50,209 nt of DNA from a virus, in the IMG/VR virus record IMGVR_UViG_3300036766_000969, positions 1-50,209 of that record, one strand, 5' to 3'. Positions 20,798-48,882 of this stretch are shown piece by piece (the first letter of the stretch is position 1; every line of letters begins with the position of its first letter). Position numbers and translations under genes: made by a program. Under the pieces are notes generated by a model. It was not told the DNA's origin and searched no databases. It saw only the letters and a list, made by a program, of their open reading frames with translations.

Positions 20798-21016
20798 CTA
20801 CGAAAGGATCCTCATTCCTTTGCCTTGGTCGAGGCAGGTGGCGGCGTCGGCGTAGCGCCACCTCGGTCGGCGTAGCGCCACCTCGGTCGGCGGCTGGGAC
20901 TTTGATCCGGTCTCCGGCTCCGGTGGCTTCGGCGGCACGTTGCGCTGGAGGTTCGCGAACCTGAGAACCGCGAGGTGATCGTGGGCGAAGCCGGGAGCGG
21001 TCTTGGACTTGCTCAT
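20798..21016 (-). CDS. Small Pro/Ser/Lys-rich protein with duplication-altered C-terminus
   Basis: 72 residues starting MSKSKTAPGFAHDHLAVLRF. ATG 21016 overlaps the TGA of the homing endonuclease gene by one base. Residues 1-45 look like genuine coding sequence; the last 25 (ALRRPRWRYADAATCLDQGK) are encoded across two tandem copies of a 20-bp unit (20851-20890). Because 20 is not a multiple of 3, the copy number sets the reading frame. With three copies the frame would end in a Pro/Thr/Ala/Lys tail (TPPPASTKAKE then stop), a more usual phage C-terminus; this is arithmetic on the given sequence. Function unknown. Confidence 0.6.
   Translation of the reverse strand: MSKSKTAPGFAHDHLAVLRFANLQRNVPPKPPEPETGSKSQPPTEVALRRPRWRYADAATCLDQGKGMRILS
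20851..20890. repeat. Direct tandem repeat, 2 x 20 bp
   Basis: The unit CGTAGCGCCACCTCGGTCGG occurs twice with no mismatch, at 20851-20870 and 20871-20890. It lies in the 3' third of the 72-residue gene and shifts its frame relative to one or three copies. It could be a recent slippage duplication or an assembly artefact. Confidence 0.95.
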
Positions 21017-22014
21017 CAGGCCACCAATCTTTCAACCTTGGGATGCCACGTTCGGTAGACACGTACAGTGTCCGACTGAAGACGTTCGTAGATCTTTTTG
21101 AAGTGGTCAACAGCTACGCCGGTCTTGATCTCACTCTCCGAGTAACGAAGCACAGAATACCCGAGATGAAAATAGGCGTCTGCTGTTGTTACATCATCTT
21201 GAACTCGAACACCAGGATCCGCGAAAACAGCCAGTGGACCGTGAAAAGCCTCCCCATCACACATCACAACGATCTTTCGGACATCGTCAACGGACACCTT
21301 AATATCTGCTTCGCGCGGAACCATCATGCCGTGGATGGGTATGGACTGCCACTGATTGAGACTGAGTCTAAAGCCCAAGCCTTCTAGCTGGTCTGCTAGG
21401 AGACGCTCCAACTTGCACGTCCCACGATACTGCTGAAAATAAGCAGCTTTCTCTTCCGGGGACAGTCGAGCATATTTTCGGTGCGCCTCTTGGATGTTGC
21501 GTTGGCCGATTAGACTCTTCCTCTGATCGGACCACTCTTTGTACCCAGCAACCCCAAGGATACTTTCGGCGATATCTTTGAAAATCTTGTAGTGCAACGT
21601 GAAGAGCCGTCGGATGTTCACCCCAGGATCACCTCGGTCGATGGCCGCTGCGACCGCTTGATAAAGCGCGTCTCCCACTACCCACTGAAGTTGTGTAGAT
21701 TTGGGAAGAAGTCGTACAGGGGACGTGGTGGTTGAACCTTCATAAGCACGTCTACTTACGAGTTGGCGAAGCGTCACACACTTCGGACACCGTTTTTGAT
21801 TGCTGTGTGCTTTATCAAAAATATCCCACAAAACACCGCATTTTAGGCATCGCAGCGTTTTATGGTACGTAGTCGTCCACTGTGTTTTGAGCTGCGCATG
21901 AGCGGAGTCTGTGTTGTGACGGAGATGCCCAGCAAACCCTCGGGTGTTGTGTAGTACCTTCCCACACACCTCACACGGGGCCGGAAAGCTGCCCGAGCGC
22001 ATGTAGGATTTCAT
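21016..22014 (-). CDS. Homing endonuclease, PD-(D/E)XK/VSR-like, with N-terminal zinc fingers
   Basis: 332 residues. N-terminus: a C2H2-like finger (C14, C17, H30, H33) and a second Cys4 ribbon (C56, C59, C76, C79). Middle: helical DNA-binding-type region with NIQEAHRKYARLSPEEKAAY. C-terminus: nuclease core resembling VSR/DUF559/EDxHD proteins, with E203 (LERLLADQLEGLGF), D237 (READIKV), the MCDGEAFHG strand (D253, E255, H258) and DDVTTADAYFHLGYSVLRYSESEI. Such free-standing nucleases spread by cutting empty alleles. It overlaps the end of the 475-residue gene by 44 bases and touches the next gene, so it was inserted between two structural genes. The DNA is visibly more AT-rich than its neighbours. 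No good ribosome site is seen; ATG 22002 is an alternative start. Confidence 0.85.
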   Translation of the reverse strand: MKSYMRSGSFPAPCEVCGKVLHNTRGFAGHLRHNTDSAHAQLKTQWTTTYHKTLRCLKCGVLWDIFDKAHSNQKRCPKCVTLRQLVSRRAYEGSTTTSPVRLLPKSTQLQWVVGDALYQAVAAAIDRGDPGVNIRRLFTLHYKIFKDIAESILGVAGYKEWSDQRKSLIGQRNIQEAHRKYARLSPEEKAAYFQQYRGTCKLERLLADQLEGLGFRLSLNQWQSIPIHGMMVPREADIKVSVDDVRKIVVMCDGEAFHGPLAVFADPGVRVQDDVTTADAYFHLGYSVLRYSESEIKTGVAVDHFKKIYERLQSDTVRVYRTWHPKVERLVA

Positions 22015-23398
22015 GCCAAGGCAAAATCAAAAGGAGAATACCGTACGTGATGTTCTCCCACGCTGGAGTCCGCCCACGAAGCTGACGATCCTCGGGGATG
22101 TTCGGCTTGTCGGTCACGTGCGCTTCGGCCTCTTGCTCAGGCCCGGAAGGCTTGAACTCGACAGCGGCGAACTTGACCGGGTTGTGGACTCCCACCCTGT
22201 AACGGATGTCCTTCTCGTCGAAGTGCCCGATGTTGAAGTGCTGTTGAAGCACCATCCCCCGATTCGAAGGCATCCTGACGGCACCGATGCTGTAGCGATC
22301 CCCGTTGAGCTTCACGATGAAATCCCGCATCGAAAGGAGAGGGACGGGACCCGTCCACACTTCGTAGGCATGCTCGACGGTCCGCCCAATGTCCTTCTGT
22401 GCGATCCGCCTCTCCGCATCATCCGGCGCGATGAGGATATCGTAAGGGCCTTCGTAACCCCCGACGATCCCTGTCCCAAAACAGAGCGGATCATCGTTGA
22501 TGGGCTGCTTGTGGTAGTCGTCCTGGATGCACGGACACGGGATGCCAACCGTCTTTTGAAGGAACAGCTTCACGCGCTCGCCACCCTGTTCGAGGATCCA
22601 GCGGTTCCGACGAATGGCCTCACGCCACATGTAGTCGAGCTTCTCGATCTCGGCGTTGGACGTGCCCGTAGCGTCTTCGAGCGGCGTCTCCACCAAATCA
22701 GAGGAACTCACACTTGAGAGATCACATCCCTCGGGGAGTCCCACGGTGGTCACTCGGTAGAAAACCCTGGTGGCCAAGTCCGTTCGCACGAGAGAGCGCA
22801 TTCGCACGTACGAGCACGTGACCACAGAGCCAGGTTTCGGAAGCACCTGCTGCTGGATCGTCTGGCGAGCCACATCGGCACGGGGTTGGGATTCGAGTTC
22901 GATCTCACCCGTGCGCCCGAACACCGACTTCACGACCGCAGGCACTCCATCGATAAGCACCTGCACATCCTCGGCGCGGTTCGCGAAGATGCCTTGAGAC
23001 CCCGACTTGATGATGGGAAACTGCGTCTTAAAGGCGTATCTGGGGAAGTCAGCCCCGGAGGCGGATGCGGACGGTCCCAGCATGATGAAGCTGGCACTCA
23101 CGTCCTCACTGACCCTCTGTTCGGTGTCTGTCCGGTCGCGCCAGAAGTTCGAACCGATAGGCAGTTGGGTAATCCGCTCGTACGGCCCGAACTCCGAGTC
23201 GAAGCTCCGGTAGACGTTCACCCCACACAGGAGGAACGGGCTGTTGAGCGCAAGCTGGGCGGGATCATCCCACCGGATGTTGAAGACACCCGGCATGAAG
23301 CCGCTCTCCATGAACACGTTGAGCGGGGGTGCCGGAAACGGCACCTTCACGCGTTCTAGCTCAGGGACGGCCCGGTCTCGATTTGAAGCGTAGGGCAT
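21971..23398 (-). CDS. Neck/adaptor-like virion protein with FN3-like N-terminus and Cys knuckle
   Basis: 475 residues. Residues about 25-95 (PLNVFMESGFMPGVFNIRWD, then CGVNVYRSFDSEFGPYERI) resemble a fibronectin-III-like domain of the type 'fNI.Wd...NvYRs....Gpy..i'. Residues 285-320 contain C288, C290 and C306 in PCPCIQDD...LCFGTGIVGGYEGPY, a knuckle reminiscent of zinc-binding turns. Residues 320-420 (DIGRTVEHAYEVWTGPVPLLSMRDFIVKLNGDRY region) look like a phage head-tail joining domain. The last 30 residues are encoded across the homing endonuclease start and may be altered by that insertion. Likely a connector or neck component given its position before the tube gene; no exact family named. 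Confidence 0.75.
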   Translation of the reverse strand: MPYASNRDRAVPELERVKVPFPAPPLNVFMESGFMPGVFNIRWDDPAQLALNSPFLLCGVNVYRSFDSEFGPYERITQLPIGSNFWRDRTDTEQRVSEDVSASFIMLGPSASASGADFPRYAFKTQFPIIKSGSQGIFANRAEDVQVLIDGVPAVVKSVFGRTGEIELESQPRADVARQTIQQQVLPKPGSVVTCSYVRMRSLVRTDLATRVFYRVTTVGLPEGCDLSSVSSSDLVETPLEDATGTSNAEIEKLDYMWREAIRRNRWILEQGGERVKLFLQKTVGIPCPCIQDDYHKQPINDDPLCFGTGIVGGYEGPYDILIAPDDAERRIAQKDIGRTVEHAYEVWTGPVPLLSMRDFIVKLNGDRYSIGAVRMPSNRGMVLQQHFNIGHFDEKDIRYRVGVHNPVKFAAVEFKPSGPEQEAEAHVTDKPNIPEDRQLRGRTPAWENITYGILLLILPWHEILHALGQLSGPV

Positions 23399-23430
23399 GG
23401 CCTACCCATGCCCCACGACAAGAGGAACCT

Positions 23431-23766
23431 TCAGGAAGGCTGGGGCTGGGCCTGTACTGGGGCTTGAACCGCGCCGTTCTGATCCGGATCCGCGAGAGGC
23501 TTGACGAGCCCGGTCTTCGCGTCGATTTCGACGGGGAATCCTGGGGGTAGCCCTCGATCCGTCACGATCCTCGTGAAGAGCTGGGTCTTCTGGTCATCAA
23601 GCTGCCGCGCCTGGACGAGGATCTTCACCTTCTCCTGCTCCAAGTCGAGCAGCGCATCGGCCAGCTCGAAACGGCGACCCTGCAACTCGGCGAGGCGCTG
23701 TAGGTCGGCGGGATCGACGGGATCGTTGAGGGTGAGCGCGGGCTTCTTCTCGGAATCTTGAGGCAT
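23431..23766 (-). CDS. Small coiled-coil phage protein
   Basis: 111 residues from ATG 23766 (MPQDSEKKPA). TAGGAG lies 6 bases before this ATG but directly abuts the earlier in-frame ATG at 23772, so 23766 is preferred. Residues 20-75 form a heptad-like helix (LQRLAELQGRRFELADALLD, LEQEKVKILVQARQLDDQKT); the tail is Pro/Gln/Ala-rich. Such short helical proteins are common near tail genes, but I do not recognise a named family. Confidence 0.75.
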   Translation of the reverse strand: MPQDSEKKPALTLNDPVDPADLQRLAELQGRRFELADALLDLEQEKVKILVQARQLDDQKTQLFTRIVTDRGLPPGFPVEIDAKTGLVKPLADPDQNGAVQAPVQAQPQPS

Positions 23767-23800
23767 TTTCATCTCCTAGCTGAACGAAGGGCTGAGGGTG

Positions 23801-23822
23801 CGTAGCACCTACAGAGGTAGAA
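23801..23822 (-). promoter_or_regulatory. Promoter-like motif in divergent intergenic region
   Basis: On the minus strand, TTCTACCTCTGTAGGTGC resembles the motif before the 446-residue gene (TTTCCTCTTGTAGGCAC). It lies about 40 bases before the gene at 23766. The 77-bp divergent gap also holds two short palindromes: GGTGC-GTA-GCACC (23797-23809) and GTAGA-AC-TCTAC (23817-23828), which could be operator sites controlling both directions. Function is inferred. Confidence 0.35.
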
Positions 23823-23843
23823 CTCTACGAAAGGATCTGGCCG

Positions 23844-24200
23844 ATGTTTGGTATCAGCGGGCTTGCTGTACGGAACGCTCTCGACGAGCGTACCGAAGGA
23901 GCCTTGTACGCCCTCCAGTACGAAGCTTCCGAGAACGGATGGGATCCCCATGTTTGGGCCCAAAAGTTCAAGGACGGTACAACCCGGTTCATCTTCTACG
24001 CCACGGACTCGAAAGGACACACAAGGTACTTCGACTACGCAACCGCACAAGACACCGGAAACCTCGCCGAGAAGGTCATCTTTTTCGAACGGATGCTCGA
24101 AACCCGAAAGGCAGAGGCGCGGGTCCGGGAAGGACTTACGCGCCTCGATGCGGGGTTGGACCCGGTACGACACCGGATCAACACCGAGAAGCTCGACTGA
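23844..24200 (+). CDS. Lone plus-strand gene, unknown function
   Basis: 118 residues (MFGISGLAVRNALDERTEGA...). One of only two good plus-strand genes in the window. AAAGGA precedes the ATG by about 8 bases. It starts back to back with the coiled-coil gene at 23766 and ends 3 bases before the convergent gene ending at 24204. The sequence has Trp/Phe-rich strands (WDPHVWAQKFKDGTTRFIFY, HTRYFDYA) and a charged helical C-terminus, so it is probably a small soluble alpha/beta protein. Being transcribed against the structural operon suggests separate, perhaps early or moron-like, expression. No family recognised. Confidence 0.8.
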   Translation: MFGISGLAVRNALDERTEGALYALQYEASENGWDPHVWAQKFKDGTTRFIFYATDSKGHTRYFDYATAQDTGNLAEKVIFFERMLETRKAEARVREGLTRLDAGLDPVRHRINTEKLD

Positions 24201-24203
24201 GGA

Positions 24204-25169
24204 TCAGCTCAAGCCCGCGTCGTGCATGACCCGGTAGAGTTCCTTGGTGTCGTCGTTGATGCTCATGTTCCAAGCGCGGAAGAAGTCGAAAGCCCCCTTG
24301 AGGTGCTCCCACGCCTTCGCCAAGATCCCGCTGATGAAGTCGAGCACCCCTGCGGTCTTGCCTGACGGGCCTTCGTAACGCCCGACATCGTGAGCCGGGC
24401 TTTCTGCGTCGGGAATTTCGAGACCCGCTTCGAACCGCTCGATCGCCTTCTTCACGGATTCGAGGACCGTCTTCTGCGAGAGATCCTTCTGGGCGACCAG
24501 CATCAGGAACTGAAACTCCTTCTCGAACTCGATGGCGTAATTCGAGACCTTCTCCTTTTTCGCGGACGTTTCGCTGAGAGCCTTGACCGACGCACGAGCC
24601 TTGTCCATCTCCTTGGAAAACTTCTCGACGTCCTTCGAAGCCTCTTCGAGCCACTTTTGCTTCTGCGCGACACCCTTCTGGGTCTTCGCCTTGCTGAGCG
24701 CCGACGTGTGCTTCTGCACCCGTGTGTTGGCTTCGCCCAAGAGACGTTCGAGGTGAGCGATCTCCATCTCCCACTCAGCAGCCGTCTTTTCGAGGGTCGC
24801 GATGAGTCCTTGGGAGACCATCGTTTGCTTGACCCACTCTTCGATCTCGTCGCCGGGCTTGATGCTCCATCGCCCTGCGGAACCTTCACCCCCAAGTCCT
24901 TCGAGGTACTCGGTGGGAAGCGGATAGCCGTTCTTGGCGCACTTGTTCCGCCAATACGCCACGGCCGCCCCGTAGCTCTGGGGACCTTTCCACCCTCGGG
25001 GGCTCTGCGAGATCTTGTCAACGCAGTCCTTCCAGAAGAGCAACACATGGGGGTCGAGCTTGCCTTCATCCACGCCGTTCACGACCGAACGCGGAGGACG
25101 AAATCCGTCATCCGCCAAAAGCGCCTTGGCGAGAAAACGGCGAACGACGTTCTGCGCGACGGTCTGCAT
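24204..25169 (-). CDS. Virion-type protein with MQ..VVRRFLA N-terminus and coiled coil
   Basis: 321 residues. The N-terminal helix QNVVRRFLAK resembles the starts of products at 28422, 39143 and 39568 and may be a shared packaging or sorting tag (inference). Residues 60-110 include WKGPQSYGAAVAYWRNKCAK; residues 125-240 are a long charged coiled coil (IAHLERLLGEANTRVQKHTS...); the C-terminus has a hydrophobic LDFISGILAKAWEHLKGAFD helix. GGAG precedes the ATG by 9 bases. Unknown function; likely a packaged or virion-associated protein. Confidence 0.78.
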   Translation of the reverse strand: MQTVAQNVVRRFLAKALLADDGFRPPRSVVNGVDEGKLDPHVLLFWKDCVDKISQSPRGWKGPQSYGAAVAYWRNKCAKNGYPLPTEYLEGLGGEGSAGRWSIKPGDEIEEWVKQTMVSQGLIATLEKTAAEWEMEIAHLERLLGEANTRVQKHTSALSKAKTQKGVAQKQKWLEEASKDVEKFSKEMDKARASVKALSETSAKKEKVSNYAIEFEKEFQFLMLVAQKDLSQKTVLESVKKAIERFEAGLEIPDAESPAHDVGRYEGPSGKTAGVLDFISGILAKAWEHLKGAFDFFRAWNMSINDDTKELYRVMHDAGLS

Positions 25170-25203
25170 GTTCGATGGCTCCCGGAGTTAGTCCTATCGG
25201 AGG

Positions 25204-25222
25204 CATCGGATAAGAGGAAGTT
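25204..25222 (-). promoter_or_regulatory. Promoter-like motif before the gene at 25169
   Basis: AACTTCCTCTTATCCGATG on the minus strand, about 35 bases before the ATG, one of eight similar motifs in this window. It also overlaps an inverted repeat AAGAGG...CCTCTT that spans the end of the preceding gene and could instead act as a weak terminator hairpin. Confidence 0.3.
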
Positions 25223-25627
25223 CTACCTCTTGTAGCGCTTCGCAAGCAGCCGCAGAAACACCTCGAAGTCTTCGGGATCGATCTCGTGCTTCACCACAGC
25301 CGCTCGTCGAACGACCTCGGTTTGGTTCCACGAGCACCCCACCTCATGGTGGTCGAGACGCTTTCGGCACTCGATGCAGATCGGGTACTCCAACACAGGA
25401 GTGACCGCGCGTTCTCCAAGGGTCTGCTTCCGACGCGCGATCGTGATCTCCATCGGGTTCGACCGGAGCTTCCACTGGGCGCATCGCTCCCGATGGTGCT
25501 TCATCTGCGCGTACCCCTCGCTGATGAAGCCACACAAACAGGGGTAGACGCGAGGGGGCATGTAGAAAGGCCGAGCCAAATAGGATTTCTCCGGACGACT
25601 AGTTACACCGTGTCCAGACGTATTCAC
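25223..25627 (-). CDS. Small two-zinc-finger protein
   Basis: 134 residues from GTG 25627, with GGAG 5 bases upstream; ATG 25561 (MPPRVYPCLCGF) is an alternative start but has no ribosome site. A first finger, CLCGFISEGYAQMKHHRERC, has C-x-C and H-x3-C ends; a second unit, CIECRKRLDHHEVGC, has C-x2-C, HH and C. The C-terminus is helical and basic (FEVFLRLLAKRYKR). Likely metal-binding, perhaps nucleic-acid or protein binding. Encoded among small conserved virion-region genes; no named family. Confidence 0.75.
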   Translation of the reverse strand: MNTSGHGVTSRPEKSYLARPFYMPPRVYPCLCGFISEGYAQMKHHRERCAQWKLRSNPMEITIARRKQTLGERAVTPVLEYPICIECRKRLDHHEVGCSWNQTEVVRRAAVVKHEIDPEDFEVFLRLLAKRYKR

Positions 25628-25642
25628 CCATCTCCGGGCCCG

Positions 25643-25954: not shown

Positions 25955-26020
25955 GGGGATCTCTACACCGTGCCATCGACACGGCATCCAGAAACCTACT
26001 CAGGCGAGCAGGCCTGCGCT

Positions 26021-26350: not shown

Positions 26351-26362
26351 GAGGGGCTCCTA

Positions 26363-29330: not shown

Positions 29331-29720
29331 CTAGGTTTCTTGAGCAACAAGCTGTCCAACCGGAAACTTGAGCTGGTCGTTCACCGCAACGTAGCGGGGA
29401 GACGAGAGGTTCGCGTAGTAGAGCAAGTTGCCCCCTGCGGCTCCGTCGTAGATCCCGAAAGCGACGATGGTTCCCCAATCAGTCACGATGTCGAGAGGGA
29501 ACACGACATCAGCCAGGTTTGAGCACTGACCGTTTACCGGAAGGCCAAATGTCACGACTTGCCTAGCGTACCCATTACCCACAACCTCAGTCGGCGGCGT
29601 GCCGGGGGTTGGCGGAGCAACGAGAAAGAGCGCACAGTAAACCTGGACGGGAGTCACGACAGACGTGTTCCGAAGCCACAGATTCAAGGTGTTGTTGGTT
29701 GCGTAGTACGTCTTCGGCAT
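29331..29720 (-). CDS. Gp80-like tail/decoration protein, paralogue 1
   Basis: 129 residues (MPKTYYATNNTLNLWLRNTS). It shares with the 30878 and 31292 products an ordered pattern: N-terminal LN.WLRN helix, YARQVVTFGLPVN strand, WGTIVAFGIYDGAAGGNLLYYANLSSP and a final DQLKF-type strand. This layout matches the Gp80-like phage tail family as I remember it. GAGG lies about 7 bases before the ATG. Confidence 0.75.
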   Translation of the reverse strand: MPKTYYATNNTLNLWLRNTSVVTPVQVYCALFLVAPPTPGTPPTEVVGNGYARQVVTFGLPVNGQCSNLADVVFPLDIVTDWGTIVAFGIYDGAAGGNLLYYANLSSPRYVAVNDQLKFPVGQLVAQET

Positions 29721-30877: not shown

Positions 30878-31276
30878 TCAGCTCTCGGTGACGGTGAGAG
30901 CCGAGCCAATGAAGCTCGCCGTATCCCCAGTACCCACCACTTTGGAGGGTGAGATCGCGCCGTAGTACAACTCGTTGCCCGCCAGAGGGTCGTCATAGAT
31001 CGCCGCTTCGACGATCGTAGCCGAACCCGCCGCACGTCCGGCTCCATAGAAGCTGATGGTGCCGACGTTGGCCACGCTGCTTCCGACGGGAGCCGCGAAG
31101 GTCACGGCCATACGGGCGTAGTTCGCATCCGCATCTTCAGCTCCCGGTACGGTGGGGGACGAAGCGGTGGTGTTGAGCGCCACGTAAACCGTAATCGCCT
31201 GCGCAGGAGCGATTGCCAGGTTTCGCAGCCAGTAGTTGAGGATGCCCTGGTTGAGGGTTTGAGTCTTGGCAGCCAT
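30878..31276 (-). CDS. Gp80-like tail/decoration protein, paralogue 2
   Basis: 132 residues (MAAKTQTLNQGILNYWLRNL). It has the same layout as the 29331 and 31292 products: N-terminal LRN helix, YARMAVTFAAPVG, VEAAIYDDPLAGNELYYGAI and a terminal TGDTASFIGSALTVTES strand. GGGGGT precedes the ATG by 6 bases. With paralogue 3 it starts MAAK, so this pair is probably the most recent duplication. Virion surface or fibre component by analogy. Confidence 0.77.
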   Translation of the reverse strand: MAAKTQTLNQGILNYWLRNLAIAPAQAITVYVALNTTASSPTVPGAEDADANYARMAVTFAAPVGSSVANVGTISFYGAGRAAGSATIVEAAIYDDPLAGNELYYGAISPSKVVGTGDTASFIGSALTVTES

Positions 31277-31291: not shown

Positions 31292-31702
31292 TCACTGCTC
31301 GGTGACGGAGAGGGCGCTGGTCGCGAAGGTGACCGTGTCCCCGATACCGACGGTCTTCGGCACGCCGAGCGTTCCGAAGTAGAGCAGGTTGCCAGCGGCC
31401 GAAGCATCGTAGATGCCGACGCCGTTGATCGTACCCCAAACCGTTCCAGCAGCCGGGAAGGCCACGGGAGCCGTGTTGAGCGTCACGCCAACGCCGCTCG
31501 GTGCGCCGAACGTGATCGTCTGACGAAGGTAGAGCGACCCGCCACCCGTCGGAACCTCGACGAGCCCGACACCATCGGGGAGCGCAGGCACTGTCGTGAG
31601 AAGCGCTGCCCAGACGACACCCGCATTGGCGGGTACGTACGCCGTGTTGCGAAGCACGGCGTTGAGAACAGCACCATCGAGGAAGTAGGACTTGGCGGCC
31701 AT
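31292..31702 (-). CDS. Gp80-like tail/decoration protein, paralogue 3
   Basis: 136 residues (MAAKSYFLDGAVLNAVLRNT). Same pattern: LYLRQTITFGAPSG, GTINGVGIYDASAAGNLLYF, GIGDTVTFATSALSVTEQ. AAGGAG lies 8 bases before the ATG. The 102-bp stretch upstream, between this gene and the HNH endonuclease gene, contains a coding-like open frame (GLLKRDDRQILRYVNKSIET) with no stop before this gene, possibly the remnant of a gene disturbed by the HNH insertion. Confidence 0.78.
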   Translation of the reverse strand: MAAKSYFLDGAVLNAVLRNTAYVPANAGVVWAALLTTVPALPDGVGLVEVPTGGGSLYLRQTITFGAPSGVGVTLNTAPVAFPAAGTVWGTINGVGIYDASAAGNLLYFGTLGVPKTVGIGDTVTFATSALSVTEQ

Positions 31703-31804: not shown

Positions 31805-32335
31805 TCATCCCGCTTGAGGAGACCACCGTTCGAGATAAGCAAGCGCACTACGAAGTAGCGCGGGCTCGTCTTTCACGTAGCCCAACACCATGTTGCATCG
31901 CCAGTGGATCAGCCCTCGGATGCACTTGCCACAAGACCTCTTGCCTGGGCAGCATTTGTGATCGTGGTCCACACAGACGGAATCCATCGTACGGCCTTTG
32001 GGAAGCATCACCTCCCCACAGCACGCGCACAGACCCTTCTGGGCCTTCCACATGGCATCGAAGTCGAGGCGATACTTCGTCCACCGAATGTTGGCTTCAA
32101 CCTTGTCGGGGTTTTTCAACCGCCACGCTAGGCTGGTAGCAGCAAACTTCTCAGGATTTGCGTCTCGCCAAGCTTTTGCGCGAGCGTTGTTTAGCTCAGG
32201 GTTCGCAGCCGCTCGGGCAATGTTGTCTGCATTCGTGCAGAGCTTGCACCAGCTTCGGGGCTTCCCCGTTTTCAAGTACTTGTGAAAATCGTTGTCTTCG
32301 TCTTTTGACAAGCCGCACTTGGGACAGGTCTTCAT
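31805..32335 (-). CDS. HNH endonuclease, endonuclease VII-like
   Basis: 176 residues. N-terminus: two CxxC pairs (CPKCGLSKDED...CKLCTNADN) forming a zinc knuckle. Core: CACCGEVMLPKG, then VCVDHDHKCCPGKRSCGKCIRGLIHWRCNMVLGY split across residues about 112-152, the signature of recombination endonuclease VII-type HNH nucleases, with the DHDH catalytic His and the RG-C-N-LG finger. In phage structural clusters such genes act as free-standing homing endonucleases. It lies between a Gp80-like gene and a DUF5659 gene and is more AT-rich than its neighbours. Confident as nuclease; target site unknown. Confidence 0.9.
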   Translation of the reverse strand: MKTCPKCGLSKDEDNDFHKYLKTGKPRSWCKLCTNADNIARAAANPELNNARAKAWRDANPEKFAATSLAWRLKNPDKVEANIRWTKYRLDFDAMWKAQKGLCACCGEVMLPKGRTMDSVCVDHDHKCCPGKRSCGKCIRGLIHWRCNMVLGYVKDEPALLRSALAYLERWSPQAG

Positions 32336-32384: not shown

Positions 32385-32642
32385 TCATTTCATATGGCAA
32401 AGCGATTTGAGATTTTTAATCGCGTGGCTGTACGGATTAGCAGGTACCTTCCCGGTGTTGTTGTACCAGGCGACCTTCAGCTCTTCGATGTTCGCAATCG
32501 AAGTGTCGAAGACGAAGTAGATCTTCCCATTTTCACCGCCTCGTTCGGTCTTCTTCATCTCGACGCCAGCCGTCTGCAAATAGGCCGCGAAGTAAAGGTC
32601 CGAAGTGCGGAAGTCAGGGGCAGCCCCATCTCGATGTGTCAT
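32385..32642 (-). CDS. DUF5659-like small protein
   Basis: 85 residues. FRTSDLYFAAYLQTAGVEMK at the start, IYFVFDTSIANIEELKVAWY in the middle and an AIKNLKSLCHMK end match DUF5659 as I remember it (TSDLYFAAYL, FvF, LK..YfN, Y..AIK.LKsl). Function unknown; often phage- or mobile-element-encoded. GAGGATG precedes the ATG by about 8 bases. It sits between two hairpins (32706-32758) and the HNH gene. Confidence 0.78.
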   Translation of the reverse strand: MTHRDGAAPDFRTSDLYFAAYLQTAGVEMKKTERGGENGKIYFVFDTSIANIEELKVAWYNNTGKVPANPYSHAIKNLKSLCHMK

Positions 32643-41266: not shown

Positions 41267-41542
41267 TCAGATACGGACGAGCTGGGCCTCGGTGGGCTTC
41301 CAGTCAGGAGCCAAGTCGGCGTTCTCTACCGTGGTCGCCTCGTTGTCGCTGATGAGAACTGCAAACCCCTGGGGGATGGCCTTCCTCTTCAGTCGAATCT
41401 GGGCGTTCCAGATGACTCCTTGAATCCCCTGCTTCAGTTCCTCCCGGGTGGTCGCCGGATCGATGAGAGAGCTGCCAAACTTCCGCAGATCTGCGTAATC
41501 GTAAGGATTGAGCCAAAGACGAAGAACTCTGTCATCCTTCAC
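41267..41542 (-). CDS. Small protein next to homing endonuclease fragment, 5' end uncertain
   Basis: 91 residues from GTG 41542 (MKDDRVLRLWLNPYDYADLR). No ribosome site precedes it. In-frame codons continue upstream for 14 codons (containing PRLFRTVE) to a TAA, without a start codon. This suggests that the endonuclease fragment in the adjacent gap replaced the original 5' end, or that translation is coupled. Residues 35-60 (TTREELKQGIQGVIWNAQIR) are helical; the tail is DWKPTEAQLVRI. No family recognised. Confidence 0.65.
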   Translation of the reverse strand: MKDDRVLRLWLNPYDYADLRKFGSSLIDPATTREELKQGIQGVIWNAQIRLKRKAIPQGFAVLISDNEATTVENADLAPDWKPTEAQLVRI

Positions 41543-41836
41543 TTCAACCGTACGGAAGAGTCTCGGATCATCCGACTGCCCACATTACAGTCAGATTTGC
41601 TGGGTCCTTTCGTTTTAGGGTACTTTGACGGAGATGGTACCCTCGGAGGTAAATGGCAGAGCCCGAGTATTACCTGCGGTAGCCAAAGCTTCCTACAGGA
41701 TCTCCAAGAAGTCCTAGGGATCCCTTGGAAAGTTCGTTCCTACAAGCACGGCCGGTTCTTCAGGATGAGTCTCGGTAAGCCGCTTTTCAAACGGCTTACC
41801 GAGACCTTCGCTTACGGACTCACCCGGAAAAGGCTT
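41540..41836 (+). pseudogene. LAGLIDADG homing endonuclease fragment
   Basis: On the plus strand, against the operon, one frame encodes a LAGLIDADG motif, LLGPFVLGYFDGDGTLGG (41597-41650; catalytic Asp in DGDG), followed by the expected SITCGSQSFLQDLQEVLGIP strand-helix, VRSYKHGRFFRMSLGK and FAYGLTRKRL end. This matches the C-terminal half of a one-motif LAGLIDADG nuclease. No start codon or N-terminal DNA-binding part is found: upstream the frame runs into antisense of the gene at 41267-41542. It fills the 277-bp gap and overlaps the end of the 380-residue gene by 17 bases. Codons are AT-richer (TTA, ATT) than the surroundings. Most likely a relic, though an unrecognised start could make it functional. 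Confidence 0.8.
41769..41805. repeat. Perfect 14-bp inverted repeat
   Basis: GTCTCGGTAAGCCG and CGGCTTACCGAGAC are exact complements separated by 9 bases (CTTTTCAAA). It lies inside the LAGLIDADG fragment and just downstream of the 380-residue gene on the minus strand. No T run follows on either strand. It may be a transcript-stabilising or pausing hairpin, or coincide with coding constraint. Confidence 0.9.
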
Positions 41837-42962
41837 GTGGGAATTCCTGGATCAAGAGCGACTTCATCTCGTCCGACTCCGCCGCGAACACCGCACGGAT
41901 CACATCAGGCCGATCCTCATAATCAGCCTGAAGCCGCGCCAACTTCTTCCTAGTTGCCTGCTCGAACTGGTAGTTCACAGGGAAGTCCTGGCAAAGCTGC
42001 TTGGCCACCATGCGACGAACGTCCGCCGAACCGTCCTTGAGCATCACGGGCTTGTGGGCCTCGGCCGAACGTGCGCTCGGCTGCTCCTTGTTGGAAGGCC
42101 CATTGGTCGTCGTGAACTTGATCCCATCCTGCTCGAAGGACTTCACGGCCGCCTTGCCCGTGTCGTGCCCCTGGGCATCGAAGACATCCTGGGACCCACG
42201 TGCGGTCGAAACCGTCGAAGTCATCCCTGCCTGCTCCTTGCGGCCCGACTCCTTCCCGACGATCTTCGAGACGACCTGCGGGGCCGTGTCCACGTAACGA
42301 GCCCGGATGCTGTCCTTCTTGGCGAGGTACTCATCACGAGCCTCGGGAGCCATACGGTCGAGCATCTCCTCTTCGGTGACGCCCTGTCCCGCATCGATCT
42401 GAACGTTCTCCGCAGCCCGGATTGCCGAACCAGCCGACTCCGCCGTGAGCACGGTCCGGGAGTGCTTCGCCTTCTCTCCTGAAGCCGTCTTGAGACGACG
42501 AACCGGGATGCCGTCCTGCATCTCCGCCGTCGTTCCGGGGTTGGCCGAGATCGGCGTCTGCGGACGGTGATTTGTGTTCCGTTGGTTCACCGCACGTGCA
42601 TGGGATGCCGTGTTGCCGACTTCACGCTCGTCCGTCTCTGTAGCCGCAGGCATCGCCGACATGTTCGGACGGTGCATGGGGTTGCCACCATCGGCCGGAC
42701 GAACCTGGATGTTCGCTGCAATCGGCCGTTCGGCCGACATGTCGTTCTCGTCGAAATGCGCCTCGGGAACGAGCCATCCGGCTCGGATCGCCCCCCGCAT
42801 CTCGGGCACTTGGTATTCGGCACCTCCCACGACGGCCACGGAGCCGTCGTACAGGACATCGGTTCCCTTGGGTACCGAGACTCCGGTCTTCCCAAGAGCG
42901 AACGTCCGGGCCGCGATGAAGTGCTGTTTCTGCCCTGCTCTGAATGCGATCTGATCCGCCAT
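41820..42962 (-). CDS. Large hydrophilic virion-type protein
   Basis: 380 residues (MADQIAFRAGQKQHFIAART). AAAGGAG lies 8 bases before the ATG and a promoter-like motif about 40 bases upstream. Residues 25-70 form a small beta domain (GVSVPKGTDVLYDGSVAVVG, YQVPEMRGAIRAGWLVP); residues 75-300 are polar and probably disordered, with conserved-looking patches (EEMLDRMAPEARDEYLAKKD); residues 320-380 are helical (VMLKDGSADVRRMVAKQLCQDF). Probably a structural or assembly protein; I do not recognise the family. Confidence 0.78.
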   Translation of the reverse strand: MADQIAFRAGQKQHFIAARTFALGKTGVSVPKGTDVLYDGSVAVVGGAEYQVPEMRGAIRAGWLVPEAHFDENDMSAERPIAANIQVRPADGGNPMHRPNMSAMPAATETDEREVGNTASHARAVNQRNTNHRPQTPISANPGTTAEMQDGIPVRRLKTASGEKAKHSRTVLTAESAGSAIRAAENVQIDAGQGVTEEEMLDRMAPEARDEYLAKKDSIRARYVDTAPQVVSKIVGKESGRKEQAGMTSTVSTARGSQDVFDAQGHDTGKAAVKSFEQDGIKFTTTNGPSNKEQPSARSAEAHKPVMLKDGSADVRRMVAKQLCQDFPVNYQFEQATRKKLARLQADYEDRPDVIRAVFAAESDEMKSLLIQEFPQAFSG

Positions 42963-43000
42963 TTGGCTACTCCTTTGGGCGTCTAAAGGGTAGACGTCCC

Positions 43001-43016: not shown

Positions 43017-43055
43017 TCAACACACTATTGAGCCCCGACGGTGTAAAGAAGAAGG

Positions 43056-43389: not shown

Positions 43390-43410
43390 CGAGATCACGG
43401 GAAAAGAGAG

Positions 43411-43773: not shown

Positions 43774-43782
43774 GATGGTTCC

Positions 43783-44433
43783 TCAGTGGCCGTAGGCCCC
43801 GCCGGTCTCGTGAAGCGGTCGTCCATCCCACTCGAAAGCCGTCTGGGATTCGGTGACCTTGACGTAGGTATGCTCGCCGGAACCCTGGGGACGCTTCCGT
43901 AGCGGCGGCCCGATGAACTCGTTGGGTTCCGCCATGACCTTCTCGCTCGGACTCCCGTGGCCGCCCACGGTACGCTTCCCGATCTCGCGGATCGTGATCT
44001 CTTTCCCACGCACATCCGTGACTTGGTAGAAGTTGATGTTCGTCTGGTCGTACCCCCACGAGCTGTAGAGGATATCTTCGACCTGGAAGCTGTGCTGGAA
44101 GTCCCGACGCTCCTGCCGCTTCTTGGCTTTCTCGTCCATCACCCGACGGCGATTTTCGGCTTCCTTGTCGATGGTTTGCTGACGGCTTTGTTCGTCACGG
44201 AAGATCGTGTGCCAGAGCGGCTTGTTGGCCTTCCCGACGAACGCAACAGCGTAGTACCGGATCTTCCCGTCAGCACCTGGGCTCTCGTACTTCCACACGT
44301 AGAGGTCCGTTCCCTCGGGGTTCTCGGGCTCCGTGCCCCGAATTTCCTTGGGCAGATGGAACTCACGAGGAAACGCGATGGCGTCGATGATCCTGGACGC
44401 CGTCGTGAGAAGGGCTGCTTGGCGAGGGTGCAT
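43783..44433 (-). CDS. Conserved phage protein with SSWGYDQTN motif
   Basis: 216 residues. Residues 35-90 are a beta-rich segment (YVWKYESPGADGKIRYYAVA) and 90-115 a charged helix (DKEAENRRRVMDEKAKKRQE). Residues 120-150 contain LYSSWGYDQTNINFYQVTDV, a block I associate with phage and plasmid proteins of unknown function. The C-terminus has EHTYVKVTESQTAFEWDG. Located between fibre and small helical genes in one operon. Soluble alpha/beta protein, role unknown. Confidence 0.76.
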   Translation of the reverse strand: MHPRQAALLTTASRIIDAIAFPREFHLPKEIRGTEPENPEGTDLYVWKYESPGADGKIRYYAVAFVGKANKPLWHTIFRDEQSRQQTIDKEAENRRRVMDEKAKKRQERRDFQHSFQVEDILYSSWGYDQTNINFYQVTDVRGKEITIREIGKRTVGGHGSPSEKVMAEPNEFIGPPLRKRPQGSGEHTYVKVTESQTAFEWDGRPLHETGGAYGH

Positions 44434-44474
44434 GTCAGTCTCTAGACCTCACAAGAAGACTACCCAGGTGGGCG

Positions 44475-46622
44475 TCAGTAGATGTTCACCTCGACGGTCA
44501 TGTCAATGTTGGTGACACCGCCAGTCGAGTCGATCTGCAAAGCCATGAAAGTACCCCGTTCGAAGTCAACCGACGTACTGAACTGGTCGGCGCGTAGTAT
44601 CCCATCGGTGAACGAAATCTGCATGCCTGTCGGAACCCCAGAACCCGCGAGACCACTGATCGACTTGAGGACTGAGATGACAACCGTGTCCGGCCCAGGA
44701 GACACGCGGACGTTTACCGTCATGCTCGTCACGATTCCACGTTGCTGGAAACGATAGAACTGTTGGATCGTATCCACTGTTGTTTGAACACCTGGCCACA
44801 ACCAACGTGATCCTGCCACAATACTTCCACGAAGACTGTAGGTAAGTTCTTGGGAAGTTGCAAAAGGAGAGAACGGCTGCGCTCCGGCAGATCTCGAAAC
44901 CAAGTCTGTACCTGCGCCGAGCTGGATGCCGTTCCCCGTCACGCTAGTTGCCGGAGCGTTCTGAAGGATGTCCGCACTGAGGTACTTACGAATGAACGTC
45001 AACGCATCCGTACCTACTGTCCCCACCGTTGTGCAGATATAGGCTTTGTTAGCATCCGTTCCGGATCGAATGAGGACGTAAGCATCATCGGCGTTGCTGC
45101 CGACGGGCATATCCAGAGCACGGGTCCAAGCACCCGTAGAGTTGTAAACCCAAATACCGTTGTCTACCGCACTGGTAGCAGCATCCAAGAAGAAGCGATC
45201 CCCATCGGCTGGGGTGTAGGCTCCCTGGGCAGCCCTTGCGCCTGTGGGGGCGCCCCCAGTATAGCGTGCCAACGCAGGTAGCTTGGTATCCAGATCGACG
45301 AAGCTGGTTACGAAAGTTAACGCGTGGGTGCCAACAACCGCAGGCGCGCTCACGCAAAGAAAACTCTGGTTGGCAAACAGACCCGCAGACACGAAAACGA
45401 AGTAGTCGTTCGCGTTAGCGCCTATAGGTAGATCCGCTGCGCGTGCCCAAGCTCCGGCAGCCACTACATAGACACCGTTGTTGATGGCGCTTGTCTGCTG
45501 CGTCGCCAGAACGCGATCTCCCGCAATGAGCGCGAGCCCTTGAACCGTTGGTGTTCCCGTGAGCGCCAAATTGGCCCCCAACGCGATACGAACAGTCGAG
45601 GTGTGAGTCAGATCCTCGTACGCTCGACAAAGAACGGACGACGTACGTAGTTGGATCATGCTTGCGTCGTTGTCGCAATAGACCCCCGTGTAGGTACCAA
45701 TCGAAGCAGGATCCGCAGGAACAGCGACGTAGATATTCGTGTCCCGTGCTGACATCTGGTTTGCGCTGCCACCCCCAGCAGGTTGGTACACACCTACCTT
45801 GAGGCCGTCACCATTTGAGATCACTTGAATTACGCTTCCACGGATGCAGTTCTGCGCGAAGATGAGATCGCCGCCAACCCCTGTTCCGTCGGACAACACT
45901 CCGTAGACGTTGGTCACCGTCCCAGTCCCAACCGTGTGGTTGTCCACCGTGATAGTGCAGGGGCGGACTTTCGACGTGACCGAAGTAGTACCAGGGAAAT
46001 GAACTCCCACAAGATCAACCACTGCTGCGGATGTGAGCGTAAGCGTCACGTCCTCGATCCGGGTCTGCTCCCCCATCGTGAGAAGCGTGGTCGGAGCCAC
46101 GACGTTCAACATCTGAAGCGTCACGGTTTGGGTATTCAGACCTCGGATCGCACAAGTATCCGGAATCGCGATCCCCGCCGCCAGATCATAGACACCCGGC
46201 ATCACCCAAACGGTTACTCCCGTCAGAGCGTTCGCTACGATGTAAGCAAGAGCCCCATCCACAGTCGCGAAAGGAGGCCCGTTGACTACCCCTGTACCGT
46301 CATCACCGTTGACCTGATCCACCAAGAGGACGTTACCGAGCTTCGGTTGAAGCAACGTAGTAAGGCCTTCGGCAGTGATGATGTGCCGCACCTGAACGAG
46401 ATTCCCATGGGGAGCAGCAATAGTCCCTTCAATGCCTCGGGTCACCGTGAAGGTGTTGCCCACGACACCAGTGACAAGCATCAACTCGCCTTCGATGTTG
46501 AGCCGGAACTGAGGAATCGCTGGGAAGGAAGCTGCCGAAGTCACTACCAAACTCAAGTCGAGAGCAGTGATACCCCCATTGAGCGTAGTGATGGCATTGT
46601 TGGTGAACTGTTCTTGAACCAT
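44475..46622 (-). CDS. Tail fibre with beta-helix and two fibre repeats
   Basis: 715 residues. The N-terminus (MVQEQFTNNAITTLNGGITA...) is a virion-attachment type beta domain. Residues about 100-330 show the short-strand repeats of a right-handed beta-helix (GDDGTGVVNGPPFATVDGAL, GVTVWVMPGVYDLAAGIAIP). Residues about 360-445 and 470-560 are two copies of a known fibre module: AGDRVLATQQTSAINNGVYV...ARAADLPIGANAND and GDRFFLDAATSAVDNGIWVY...TRALDMPVGSNADD, each ending VGT-ALTF. The C-terminus is a beta domain (GTFMALQIDSTGGVTNIDMT). GAGGGG lies 5 bases before the ATG. Role: host receptor recognition, possibly polysaccharide binding or degradation. Confidence 0.86.
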   Translation of the reverse strand: MVQEQFTNNAITTLNGGITALDLSLVVTSAASFPAIPQFRLNIEGELMLVTGVVGNTFTVTRGIEGTIAAPHGNLVQVRHIITAEGLTTLLQPKLGNVLLVDQVNGDDGTGVVNGPPFATVDGALAYIVANALTGVTVWVMPGVYDLAAGIAIPDTCAIRGLNTQTVTLQMLNVVAPTTLLTMGEQTRIEDVTLTLTSAAVVDLVGVHFPGTTSVTSKVRPCTITVDNHTVGTGTVTNVYGVLSDGTGVGGDLIFAQNCIRGSVIQVISNGDGLKVGVYQPAGGGSANQMSARDTNIYVAVPADPASIGTYTGVYCDNDASMIQLRTSSVLCRAYEDLTHTSTVRIALGANLALTGTPTVQGLALIAGDRVLATQQTSAINNGVYVVAAGAWARAADLPIGANANDYFVFVSAGLFANQSFLCVSAPAVVGTHALTFVTSFVDLDTKLPALARYTGGAPTGARAAQGAYTPADGDRFFLDAATSAVDNGIWVYNSTGAWTRALDMPVGSNADDAYVLIRSGTDANKAYICTTVGTVGTDALTFIRKYLSADILQNAPATSVTGNGIQLGAGTDLVSRSAGAQPFSPFATSQELTYSLRGSIVAGSRWLWPGVQTTVDTIQQFYRFQQRGIVTSMTVNVRVSPGPDTVVISVLKSISGLAGSGVPTGMQISFTDGILRADQFSTSVDFERGTFMALQIDSTGGVTNIDMTVEVNIY

Positions 46623-46631
46623 GGAGACCCC

Positions 46632-47378
46632 TCAAAGACCAGGCACCACATGGCCGCCCATCGAAAATGGGCTTCCGAGCAACCCGGTGAACATGGGTAC
46701 CAACTGCAAGTCAGCCCCAACAGACGAATGAGCCGTCAACACGGCATGAACGAAAGCGGTCTCTTCCACAAATACAACCGACACAGCTTGGGGAAGCACC
46801 AAATTGGATACTTGGATCTTATGAATGACTCCATTGAAATCTGCGTAGGGAACGATCCCACTGCTGCCCCCGAGCCACAAACTAATAGGAACAAAAGAAC
46901 CCCATGTAGCAACAACCTCATGACTGATCGCGGCTACGGTACGGGTCTCGATGATCATCGTAGGGTTATTCGAATCCCACACAAGACGTACTGTCATGGG
47001 AGTCCCCGCAGGAAGGCTCCCCAACGGGAGCGTGATAGTCGAGACGGGATTGCCTAAACCATCCCAAATGATCCCAAATGGTTGGTTGCCAGAATCCACC
47101 CCAATCCCGATGACCCCCCGGCTATCCGTCAACATGGCGATCATTCGATCTGCCCCAAGAGCCCCAGTCACGAAGTAAGCTTCAAGCGTTCCACGTCGAC
47201 CATTGAGCTGGTAAGAAAGGGGATGCTCTCCTGTCCCCCGTGCTTGCACAGCAGCGCCGGGTAGAAGAGGCGTGACAATAGGGTTCCCCATGTTCCCAAG
47301 ACCGGGCGGGGCAGAACCACTGAAATCCACGTCCACGATGAACCCGGCGGGCGAGATCATGAAGGGCGCGTCAGCCAT
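46632..47378 (-). CDS. Concanavalin/laminin-G-like virion protein
   Basis: 248 residues. Strand pattern GFIVDVDFSGSAPPGLGNMG, TLEAYFVTGALGADRMIAML, VIGIGVDSGNQPFGIIWDGL, GTPMTVRLVWDSNNPTMIIE and ISLWLGGSSGIVPYADFNGV is that of the concanavalin-A-like lectin/LamG fold used in phage appendages to bind sugars. It is encoded directly before the fibre gene. The start lies only about 15 bases after a promoter-like motif, with a weak ribosome site. Likely a receptor-binding or fibre-associated subunit; binding target unknown. Confidence 0.76.
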   Translation of the reverse strand: MADAPFMISPAGFIVDVDFSGSAPPGLGNMGNPIVTPLLPGAAVQARGTGEHPLSYQLNGRRGTLEAYFVTGALGADRMIAMLTDSRGVIGIGVDSGNQPFGIIWDGLGNPVSTITLPLGSLPAGTPMTVRLVWDSNNPTMIIETRTVAAISHEVVATWGSFVPISLWLGGSSGIVPYADFNGVIHKIQVSNLVLPQAVSVVFVEETAFVHAVLTAHSSVGADLQLVPMFTGLLGSPFSMGGHVVPGL

Positions 47379-47390
47379 CTCACTGAGAGC

Positions 47391-47405
47391 GAGCTATAAA
47401 TTCTT
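47391..47405 (-). promoter_or_regulatory. Promoter-like motif before the gene at 47378
   Basis: AAGAATTTATAGCTC on the minus strand, directly following a terminator hairpin (47428-47461) and about 15 bases before ATG 47378. Terminator then TATAGC motif then gene is good contextual support for a transcript start. Confidence 0.45.
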
Positions 47406-47427
47406 TCGGCTTACAGGGCACAAAATC

Positions 47428-47461
47428 AGAAGGCTGGGCTCCCTACGGAGTCCAGCCTTCT
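47428..47461 (-). terminator. Intrinsic terminator after the exported protein gene
   Basis: AGAAGGCTGG and CCAGCCTTCT form a perfect 10-bp outer stem, then one mismatch, then CTCC/GGAG around a 4-base loop. On the minus strand the stem is followed by GATTTTG, so it has the GC-rich stem and short T run of a Rho-independent terminator. It lies 30 bases after the stop of the gene at 47492. Confidence 0.8.
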
Positions 47462-47491
47462 GCTTACCCTTCGGTACTTAGGTCAGGGTTC

Positions 47492-48097
47492 TCACCAGAA
47501 CGAGAAGTAAAGCGCTGCGTGAGGATTGCTCCGCCACGTACCCCACGCCATCGCATAACCTGCGTAGAGGCCGAAGTTGCGAGTCAGGTCGAAACCCAAC
47601 CCAGCACCCACACTGCGAACTCCGACGTAGGCGTTGATGTTTGCCCACTGCCAGAAGGCAGGCTCGAACAACATGCCCCCGTCAACTCCACGTCCAGCAT
47701 CCTTCTCCGAGAAGGCTTCGACAGGGAGGTACCCGAGAGCAGCCTTCATCCGGAATCGGAACCCGTACGTGGGCTCGGTCTTCTGCGCCACAACGAGCTT
47801 GATCTGGCTCTTGACGTCGATTTGGTAGTTGCACCAGTCGATGTGGAGCTTGTACGGCTTCGGGTCATCCCCTGAGCCATACACACGGCCATCCTTGTCC
47901 ACCACGATGGTGACCGAATCGGCCGTGAGCTTCGGAATGTTGTCTAAGCGACATTTCTGGGCTTGGAGCAACGACACGAAGACTTTCATGTCCTCGGGCG
48001 GTACGCATGTCCCCCCATCGCAAGTTGTCTGTGCCGAAGCGTTGGCTGCCACGAGGCAGAGAGGAACTGCGAACAGAACGATGTTCTTGACCAACAC
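47492..48097 (-). CDS. Sec-exported outer-membrane-barrel-like protein
   Basis: 201 residues. The N-terminus MLVKNIVLFAVPLCLVAANA is a clear Sec signal peptide, with probable cleavage in ASAQ. The mature part begins with two Cys (TCDGGTC) and a segment ending in WCNYQIDVKS; the second half alternates aromatic and small residues (YGFRFRMKAALGYLPVEAF, GAGLGFDLTRNFGLYAGYAM) and ends ALYFSFW with an aromatic last residue, as in outer membrane beta-barrels recognised by the BAM complex. Likely function: changing the infected cell surface, for example superinfection exclusion, or a lysis role; both are inference. Followed by an intrinsic terminator. Confidence 0.82.
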   Translation of the reverse strand: MLVKNIVLFAVPLCLVAANASAQTTCDGGTCVPPEDMKVFVSLLQAQKCRLDNIPKLTADSVTIVVDKDGRVYGSGDDPKPYKLHIDWCNYQIDVKSQIKLVVAQKTEPTYGFRFRMKAALGYLPVEAFSEKDAGRGVDGGMLFEPAFWQWANINAYVGVRSVGAGLGFDLTRNFGLYAGYAMAWGTWRSNPHAALYFSFW

Positions 48098-48120
48098 GTC
48101 GTAGCTTTTCCACGAAAGGA

Positions 48121-48882
48121 TTAGACGACGTGCTCGGGCAAGGCCACAGTCGTATGTTTCGTTGCAGGTACCGCCAGACCGTCCCGCCTCGCTTCCCTCA
48201 ACCGACGATGGATGAAGGTTGTAGAGGTCTCGAAGTGCGCTGCTACTTGCACTTTGGTCAATCCGTTTTCGAGAAGCCGTAGAATCTCTGCCGTCGAAAT
48301 GTCATGCCGGTAGGCGAAGTGTTTGTCTTTGAGAAGCTGACCTGTGCGGCTCTCACTTATCTTCGCCTTGGCTTCAGGAGTGTGCTGGTGGCCCTTGAAA
48401 GTCGACGGCTGCCCCCGCTTCGTCTTGGAGATGCTCGCCTTGGTTTCTTCCGACCGAGGCACGCCACGCTTCATCTCAGCGAGTTTAGCCATGTGCTCTG
48501 GCGTATTCGTATTCCGACCCGCCATGAGGGTAGACATGTAGAGCTTGTAGGCCTCAGAATGTCGCCGCCCTTTCTGACCTCGCCCTCCTTCTGTGTGATT
48601 CGTGAGACGATCACCCCGAGCACGGGCCTCAGCAATGAAGCGTACTTCAAAGGCATCCAACTCTTCGCGTGATATGGCCTCCGCCACCTGCTCAATACGA
48701 GGCTTCAAACCAAGCCTACGCAATTGAGCCAACCACCGCACTGAGTGACGAGTAAATGTCGCCAGGTTCTTGGGAGTAAGATGCGTCCAAAGGCGCTCTT
48801 TGAGTCCCAGCGTAGTTTGACCTATGTAACGAAGCTCCCCATTTCGGGGGTCATACAATGCGTAGATCCAACCGTAAGCCAT
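48121..48882 (-). CDS. GIY-YIG homing endonuclease with NUMOD3 repeats
   Basis: 253 residues from ATG 48882 (MAYGWIYALYDPRNGELRYI), with AAAAGGAG 6 bases before; longer starts give non-coding-looking sequence. The GIY-YIG core is WIYALYDP...LRYIGQT with the following SVRWLAQLRRLGLKP and the catalytic-region E in FEVRFIAEARARG. Three NUMOD3-type DNA-binding repeats follow (GRRHSEAYKL, GVPRSEETKASISKTKRG, HTPEAKAKISESRTG), then a helix-turn-helix (LTKVQVAAHFETSTTFIHRR). Inserted between the exported-protein gene and a fibre-like gene; a 15-bp palindrome (48903-48917) lies just upstream. Confidence 0.93.
   Translation of the reverse strand: MAYGWIYALYDPRNGELRYIGQTTLGLKERLWTHLTPKNLATFTRHSVRWLAQLRRLGLKPRIEQVAEAISREELDAFEVRFIAEARARGDRLTNHTEGGRGQKGRRHSEAYKLYMSTLMAGRNTNTPEHMAKLAEMKRGVPRSEETKASISKTKRGQPSTFKGHQHTPEAKAKISESRTGQLLKDKHFAYRHDISTAEILRLLENGLTKVQVAAHFETSTTFIHRRLREARRDGLAVPATKHTTVALPEHVV

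Follow-up and report, generated by a model that had tools for sequence, protein, structure and literature searches.

Free-standing homing endonucleases of phages cut the genome of a co-infecting phage, and repair then copies the endonuclease gene into the cut genome with co-conversion of flanking markers (PMC2988022). Such genes are already known near essential phage genes, where one may replace another at a single site and where exchange takes place (PMC2988022, PMC10448857). In phages related to T4, for example, SegH and Hef are found in place of mobC and mobE (cited in PMC2988022). Here we describe the nuclease genes of a 50,209-base stretch of DNA, IMG/VR virus record IMGVR_UViG_3300036766_000969 (hereafter the window), with emphasis on nuclease 1, a Vsr-like protein encoded directly 3' of a virion-type gene, gene A.

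As judged from its sequence, the window holds three intact nuclease genes and the debris of a fourth, all sited among late or virion genes. We consider it very probable that these are free-standing homing endonuclease genes, three intact and one in pieces, parked at late-gene junctions of a large tailed phage. The original prediction listed four nuclease families side by side; three of them are represented by intact genes, while the fourth is a LAGLIDADG fragment. Late genes of the window lie mostly on the minus strand, as do all three intact nuclease genes, each of which keeps its catalytic residues. The G+C content of the nuclease genes is 0.51-0.56, compared to a mean of 0.585 (standard deviation 0.025) for the structural genes. 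Relatives of the window are contigs of up to ~530 kb, and distant similarity links its gene A and a capsid fragment to Bacillus phage G and Tunturiibacter phage Tunturi_5. The window thus probably represents part of a large ('jumbo') phage genome. No tRNA genes were found in the window, and the one stretch compared with a known phage collection (13125-21015) gave no nucleotide match. The predicted location between virion genes holds broadly, as neighbors include phrog_240 head proteins and the gene A orthologue of phage Tunturi_5 is annotated as a minor tail protein, but not every neighbor is a known virion protein. New here is a family of Vsr-like nucleases that lacks a library model and occupies one stop/start junction, with gain and loss visible as empty, full, broken and scarred states.

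A Vsr-like nuclease at the end of gene A

The features of this region are as follows.
21016-22014, minus strand: nuclease 1, a Vsr-like free-standing endonuclease of 332 amino acids (fold match, invariant residues, optional among relatives)
21898-21975, minus strand: zinc-finger-like module 1 of nuclease 1, CxxC...H...H, residues 14-39, with conserved C14, C17, H30 and H39
21778-21849, minus strand: second zinc ribbon of nuclease 1, C56xxC...C76xxC, residues 56-79, with four invariant cysteines and weak zinc-ribbon matches
21025-21423, minus strand: Vsr-like catalytic domain of nuclease 1, residues 198-330, by structure comparison
21971-23398, minus strand: gene A, the upstream virion-type gene, 475 amino acids, with the insertion after codon 452, between 22043 and 22042
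21971-22042, minus strand: 23-codon tail of gene A and its stop codon, overlapping the nuclease 1 start; tails like it occur in other carriers and in two scars

The proposal that nuclease 1 is a PD-(D/E)XK/VSR-like nuclease with zinc fingers is borne out by its predicted fold and its conserved Cys/His modules, the first of which would bind zinc. An AlphaFold2 model built from 12 homologues has a predicted local distance difference test score (pLDDT) of 81.7 and a predicted template modeling score (pTM) of 0.49. In structure comparison with VIA-align, the predicted C-terminal domain adopts the Vsr-like PD-(D/E)XK fold and matches Vsr (1cw0, Z 9.4), NGO0050 (3hrl, Z 9.2) and I-Bth0305I (3r3p, Z 8.9); the corresponding Foldseek E-values are weak (0.0088 for 3hrl and 0.079 for 3r3p). 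Residues E203, D237, E255, H258 and D274 are invariant in the 12 homologues. Four of them, E203, D237, H258 and D274, stand in the sequence alignment in the order expected for EDxHD enzymes and are the putative active-site residues. No model in Pfam, PHROGs, NCBIfam or PADLOC scored above its cut-off for nuclease 1, and members of the family are therefore currently without a family name.

I-Bth0305I, an intron-encoded enzyme, is the nearest described counterpart. The two share a predicted Vsr-like domain, and the invariant E, D, H and D of nuclease 1, its putative active-site residues, come in the order expected from such enzymes. In nuclease 1, as has been reported for homing enzymes of phages (PMC3943268), the DNA-binding part is separate from the nuclease domain. 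The nuclease 1 family differs from I-Bth0305I in being free-standing, in carrying two N-terminal zinc modules and in having no sequence match to the solved I-Bth0305I protein. Related arrangements were seen at two further places (related loci are designated by L numbers). L039 contains, besides its copy linked to gene A, NUMOD-like repeats followed by a Vsr-like domain (L039:3135-3917). In L005, nuclease 1-like DNA-binding modules follow directly after a sheath gene (L005:20756-21403, E = 9e-6, frame cut by the locus end), possibly a second site for the family.

The profile scan for nuclease 1 homologues returned 15 loci, 14 of which include the upstream flank. L020 and L089 denote the same locus. 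Nuclease 1 lies directly 3' of gene A in all 14 flank-bearing loci, and also in L119 and L147. This position is no selection effect in the 14 loci, because their scan was not aimed at gene A; L119 was found via gene A. A search of viral_contigs confirmed 296 gene A loci. Among the best 80 of these, which were inspected for nuclease 1, only two carry it, most close relatives being without it. Carriers are scattered over the gene A tree, in a sample that is enriched for them.

The insertion point is resolved at the nucleotide level by one pair of loci. At nuclease 1 sites, gene A and the next gene, gene B, overlap by their stop and start codons (TAY|TRATG). When L089 (full) is compared with L087 (empty), an insert of ~1.05 kb is seen in L089, placed exactly after the final Tyr codon of gene A and before its stop (TAC|TGATG). 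The insert separates ..ACCTAC from TGATG; the flanks of the two loci are similar, and no bases were lost at the insertion. The nuclease of L089/L020 ends on the same TGATG, so that the stop/start overlap with gene B is kept; nuclease 1 of the window likewise ends in TGATG. Gene A of relatives aligns up to residue 452 and then ends. In the window, L020, L036-L040 and L048, gene A is extended by 21-26 codons, with its stop at or inside the nuclease start (the tail form). The predicted trimming of a neighboring gene is thus reversed here, with gene A extended by 23 codons. The nuclease 1 element would be tied to the stop/start overlap of genes A and B, its tail form sitting exactly before the gene A stop. 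Gene A would read 21-26 codons on and end at the nuclease start, while the nuclease would end on the old overlap, so that translation of the operon could stay coupled.

Two other explanations of this arrangement were set aside. A group I intron at the end of gene A has no match among the described families of Rfam, and the insert adjoins the stop codon, so its 3' exon would code for nothing. Fusion of gene A to the nuclease by frameshifting was considered since the frames overlap, but several carriers have a normal gene A stop and a separate nuclease start. Rfam searches found no intron in the window at E up to 1, and none in four relatives at gathering thresholds (described families only).

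Gene A has no solved relative, and its structure model (pLDDT 54.7) is too poor for a fold search to suggest a function. In L024 (L024:10001-12634), gene A is broken by an in-frame intein-like insert that starts with CFTPETLV and ends with VVHN before a C. The insert has a LAGLIDADG-like region and represents a second kind of mobile element within the same gene. The L147 contig, with gene A and nuclease 1, comes from a bin named Verrucomicrobiota, which hints at a host group, although the binning may be wrong.

Loss, selection and divergence of nuclease 1

Several relatives carry traces of a lost or failing nuclease. L074 keeps the tail together with a minigene (MPFLGSCRVS*) that matches the first nuclease codons and is joined to gene B, while the site is empty in its close sister L104, the two differing by 73 nucleotides. 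A second scar, in L005/L055, consists of the tail and a shorter remnant with ~14 nucleotides in common with the nuclease start of L037. The nuclease copy of L049 is interrupted. In L042/L047, the only close pair that allows the test, the ratio of nonsynonymous to synonymous substitution rates (dN/dS) is ~0.11, and nuclease 1 is under purifying selection in this pair. Lineages would hold the element under selection for a time and then lose it, sometimes with a scar.

Alternatively, nuclease 1 could be a resident gene of the phage that serves a function next to gene A, such as genome processing or packaging, and is inherited vertically with losses. Its constant place beside gene A across 23-49% identity, its purifying selection and a divergence that tracks that of gene A (Spearman 0.66 over 66 pairs, which are not independent) fit this explanation, and the HK97 HNH protein beside the terminase is a non-selfish precedent (PMC10448857). 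The correlated divergence is compatible both with slow spread and with long retention accompanied by losses. Against a resident role, nuclease 1 is absent from 78 of the 80 gene A loci inspected, the scars and the broken copy indicate that it is dispensable, and no other gene in the data seen has its distribution. We therefore regard a resident role as improbable.

It is also conceivable, though we give it little credence, that the element comprises the nuclease and the hydrophobic tail of 21-26 residues added to protein A, and that the tail outlives the nuclease by serving the virus. A retained tail would, for instance, alter protein A or block re-invasion. The tail is kept in both scars (L074 and L005/L055). 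Its hydrophobic bias is only modestly greater than that of a composition-matched null (P ~0.01, from sequences that are not independent), and a selected hydrophobic peptide was set aside for this reason.

Several observations weigh against the homing interpretation. Nuclease 1 diverges between carriers about as much as gene A or more (window and L020, 47% against 54% identity). Recent transfer between the sampled phages was not seen, and long vertical retention with losses fits as well. The clean full/empty pair is a single case at the nucleotide level. Carriers without the tail, in which gene A has its normal end (L041, L042, L044, L047, L049 and L119), indicate that the precise site of insertion may shift by some bases. 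Since cut sites of free-standing enzymes can lie hundreds to thousands of bases away, as in T4 (PMC2988022), the insertion point need not be the target. Lastly, the GIY-YIG gene of the window (48121-48882) has no aligned empty site, as no relative spans its gap on both sides.

Other nuclease sequences among the late genes

The remaining nuclease sequences, and a capsid fragment that adjoins one of them, are listed below.
31805-32335, minus strand: endonuclease VII (EndoVII)-type (DHHRN) nuclease, 176 amino acids, between the 32385-32642 and 31292-31702 genes
48121-48882, minus strand: GIY-YIG/NUMOD3 nuclease, Seg-like, 253 amino acids (Pfam GIY-YIG 2.1e-5, NUMOD3 2.8e-9)
about 41560-41819, plus strand: LAGLIDADG endonuclease remnant, on the strand opposite to every neighbor
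41267-41557, minus strand: truncated major capsid protein fragment, matching residues 171-242 of the capsid protein of L027 at 40% identity

The EndoVII and GIY-YIG/NUMOD3 assignments of the original prediction agree with the profile matches, and none of the nucleases fell into a non-nuclease family or was found in all related phages. Its further proposal that three of the nucleases replace or trim the ends of neighboring genes found no support: alignments of genes 32385-32642, 41820-42962 and 48967-49488 with relatives cover the whole gene or almost all of it. PADLOC gave no match that would suggest a defense role, except for one weak GIY-YIG match.

The EndoVII-type protein matches Pfam Endonuclease_7 (E = 2.8e-14) and the PHROG for endonuclease VII (6e-22), and its motif is complete (CX2C, DHDH, CX2C, R, N). 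In its catalytic residues and the C-terminal position of the motif, it resembles F-CphI and other DHHRN homing endonucleases (PMC6083498); in contrast, no known intron family was found in the window with Rfam. The gene is optional between related phages. For the gap that follows the 32385-32642 gene, 17 loci are informative, some of which represent the same phage more than once. The gap is empty in 12 (28-143 nucleotides) and holds an EndoVII 60% identical to the window copy in L079 and L110; in L018, L025 and L092 it is occupied by an unrelated gene of head type. The gene could alternatively encode the Holliday-junction resolvase of the phage, as it has the motif of T4 Endo VII. However, the C-terminal motif is the arrangement of the homing/restriction clade (PMC6083498), the gene is optional at its site, and one relative has eight copies, so there is only a slim chance that it is a resolvase rather than a homing gene. 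That relative, the 203-kb record G019 (L021), carries two GIY-YIG and three HNH_3 matches in addition to its eight EndoVII-type genes.

Near this gene, 29331-29720, 30878-31276 and 31292-31702 encode three paralogous small head-type proteins, of which relatives often have two. The first and third match phrog_240, and 30878-31276 is linked to them only via shared hits in relatives.

The GIY-YIG gene has the composition of a Seg-type homing gene, with a GIY-YIG domain, DNA-binding modules and an intergenic placement. Like the T4 Seg genes, it combines GIY-YIG and NUMOD3 between phage genes, and its best named phage relatives are SegD-like, including SegD of KVP40-like phages. It differs in its identity to these (~29%) and in the gene pair that it separates. 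In L140, a 35%-identical homologue separates a baseplate-like gene from the 49524 orthologue; this junction is closed in L139. When viral_contigs was searched with the GIY-YIG gene and the LAGLIDADG fragment themselves, no relatives were found. In the 18.8-kb record G024 (L027:9159-14750, L145), four successive gaps of the head cluster each hold a GIY-YIG gene, all within ~6 kb. Beside the GIY-YIG gene of the window, 47492-48097 encodes a protein of 201 amino acids whose N terminus looks like a signal peptide and whose C-terminal end is aromatic. It resembles an outer-membrane beta-barrel protein, which is odd among virion genes. It has no family match, and no relative was found to test its ends.

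The LAGLIDADG stretch, predicted at 41540-41836, has partial homology to the family, but it lies on the plus strand, lacks its N-terminal part and scores below the Pfam cut-off. Homology starts at ~41561. The LAGLIDADG_3 match (E = 3.4e-4, 21.2 bits against a curated cut-off of 22.5) covers positions 6-43 of the 82-position model, and a PHROG endonuclease match (E = 5.5e-5) covers positions 191-250 of 308. Only part of one domain is present, where a complete gene would have two motifs or a dimer-forming domain. Judged by its sequence, the stretch is debris and not a gene; an active LAGLIDADG gene or intein was rejected, since the piece is truncated and antisense to its neighbors. A near-perfect inverted repeat (41769-41805, arms of 17 nucleotides, 3 nucleotides apart, no T run) lies inside the remnant.

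The capsid fragment abuts the remnant head to head, with the two homologies a few bases apart. Its homology runs from 41557 to 41339 (E = 4e-13) and is truncated at the 5' end; phage G gp27 is 33% identical. Capsid proteins of relatives are 86-95% identical to that of L027, compared to ~40% for the fragment, which has therefore decayed or comes from another phage type. The window has no full capsid gene. In relatives, the 41820 and 39858 genes are separated by a short gap (L029 and L033) or by one that contains a GIY-YIG gene (L027). Different homing genes at one junction recall the SegH and Hef replacements, with the difference that the occupant in the window is a remnant and not an active gene.

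A possible rearrangement beside nuclease 1 and the proposed homing cycle

The 3' side of nuclease 1 coincides with a large difference from relatives.
20786-21015, minus strand: junction where the closest relative has a segment of ~14.5 kb, from gene B to the sheath and UvrD-like genes

In the closest relative, G029, whose gene A is 68% identical, ~14.5 kb separate gene A from the orthologue of 19919-20785. This segment includes gene B, gene C, a 1,429-residue sheath-like gene, a UvrD-like gene and others; the sheath-like and UvrD-like genes were named by visual inspection of sequence features. At the same place, nuclease 1 and ~230 nucleotides are all that the window contains, with the left break at the nuclease 3' end, and the sheath-like gene of G029 was not found in the window. 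The 230-nucleotide junction contains a 20-nucleotide direct repeat (CCGACCGAGGTGGCGCTACG). Positions 1-20785 had no homology to the first locus sets because the 10-kb flanks stopped before passing the sheath gene; G029 has those genes.

The 14.5-kb difference may reflect a rearrangement linked to a homing endonuclease gene (HEG), relocation of a module or misassembly. Nuclease genes have been reported at sites of genetic exchange (PMC10448857). Like the HEG-islands described there, the window has several homing genes interspersed with essential structural genes, and one of the homing genes adjoins a rearrangement boundary. In those islands the bracketed cargo is common to distant phages at the nucleotide level, whereas the likeness here is one of gene arrangement only. 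Metagenome assembly errors would make the capsid/LAGLIDADG junction and the missing 14.5 kb, and so part of the picture, an artefact. Relatives keep gene B and the sheath gene after gene A, the contig is uncultured and without a full capsid gene, and each of the two junctions lacks an independent copy. The junction between nuclease 1 and gene A recurs in many independent contigs, and we think an artefact unlikely.

The suggestion of repeated colonization is supported by the patchy distribution of the nucleases among relatives, the many empty sites, the loss scars and the different nuclease families found in one gap. As homing endonucleases, each of the intact enzymes would cut a related genome lacking its gene during mixed infection, and repair from the carrier genome would copy the nuclease gene, along with late genes on its flanks, into the genome that was cut. 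Marker-exclusion competition between phages is a plausible consequence, by analogy to T4-like phages (PMC2988022), and could exclude rival phages. The density of homing genes in the window is high, yet not exceptional within its phage group.

Homing genes are expected to be gained, to decay and to be lost, and scars of free-standing ones are seldom visible. With four site states across a large group of uncultured phages, the homing cycle becomes countable on a tree. The junction of genes A and B offers a target for testing how such enzymes settle where insertion costs least.

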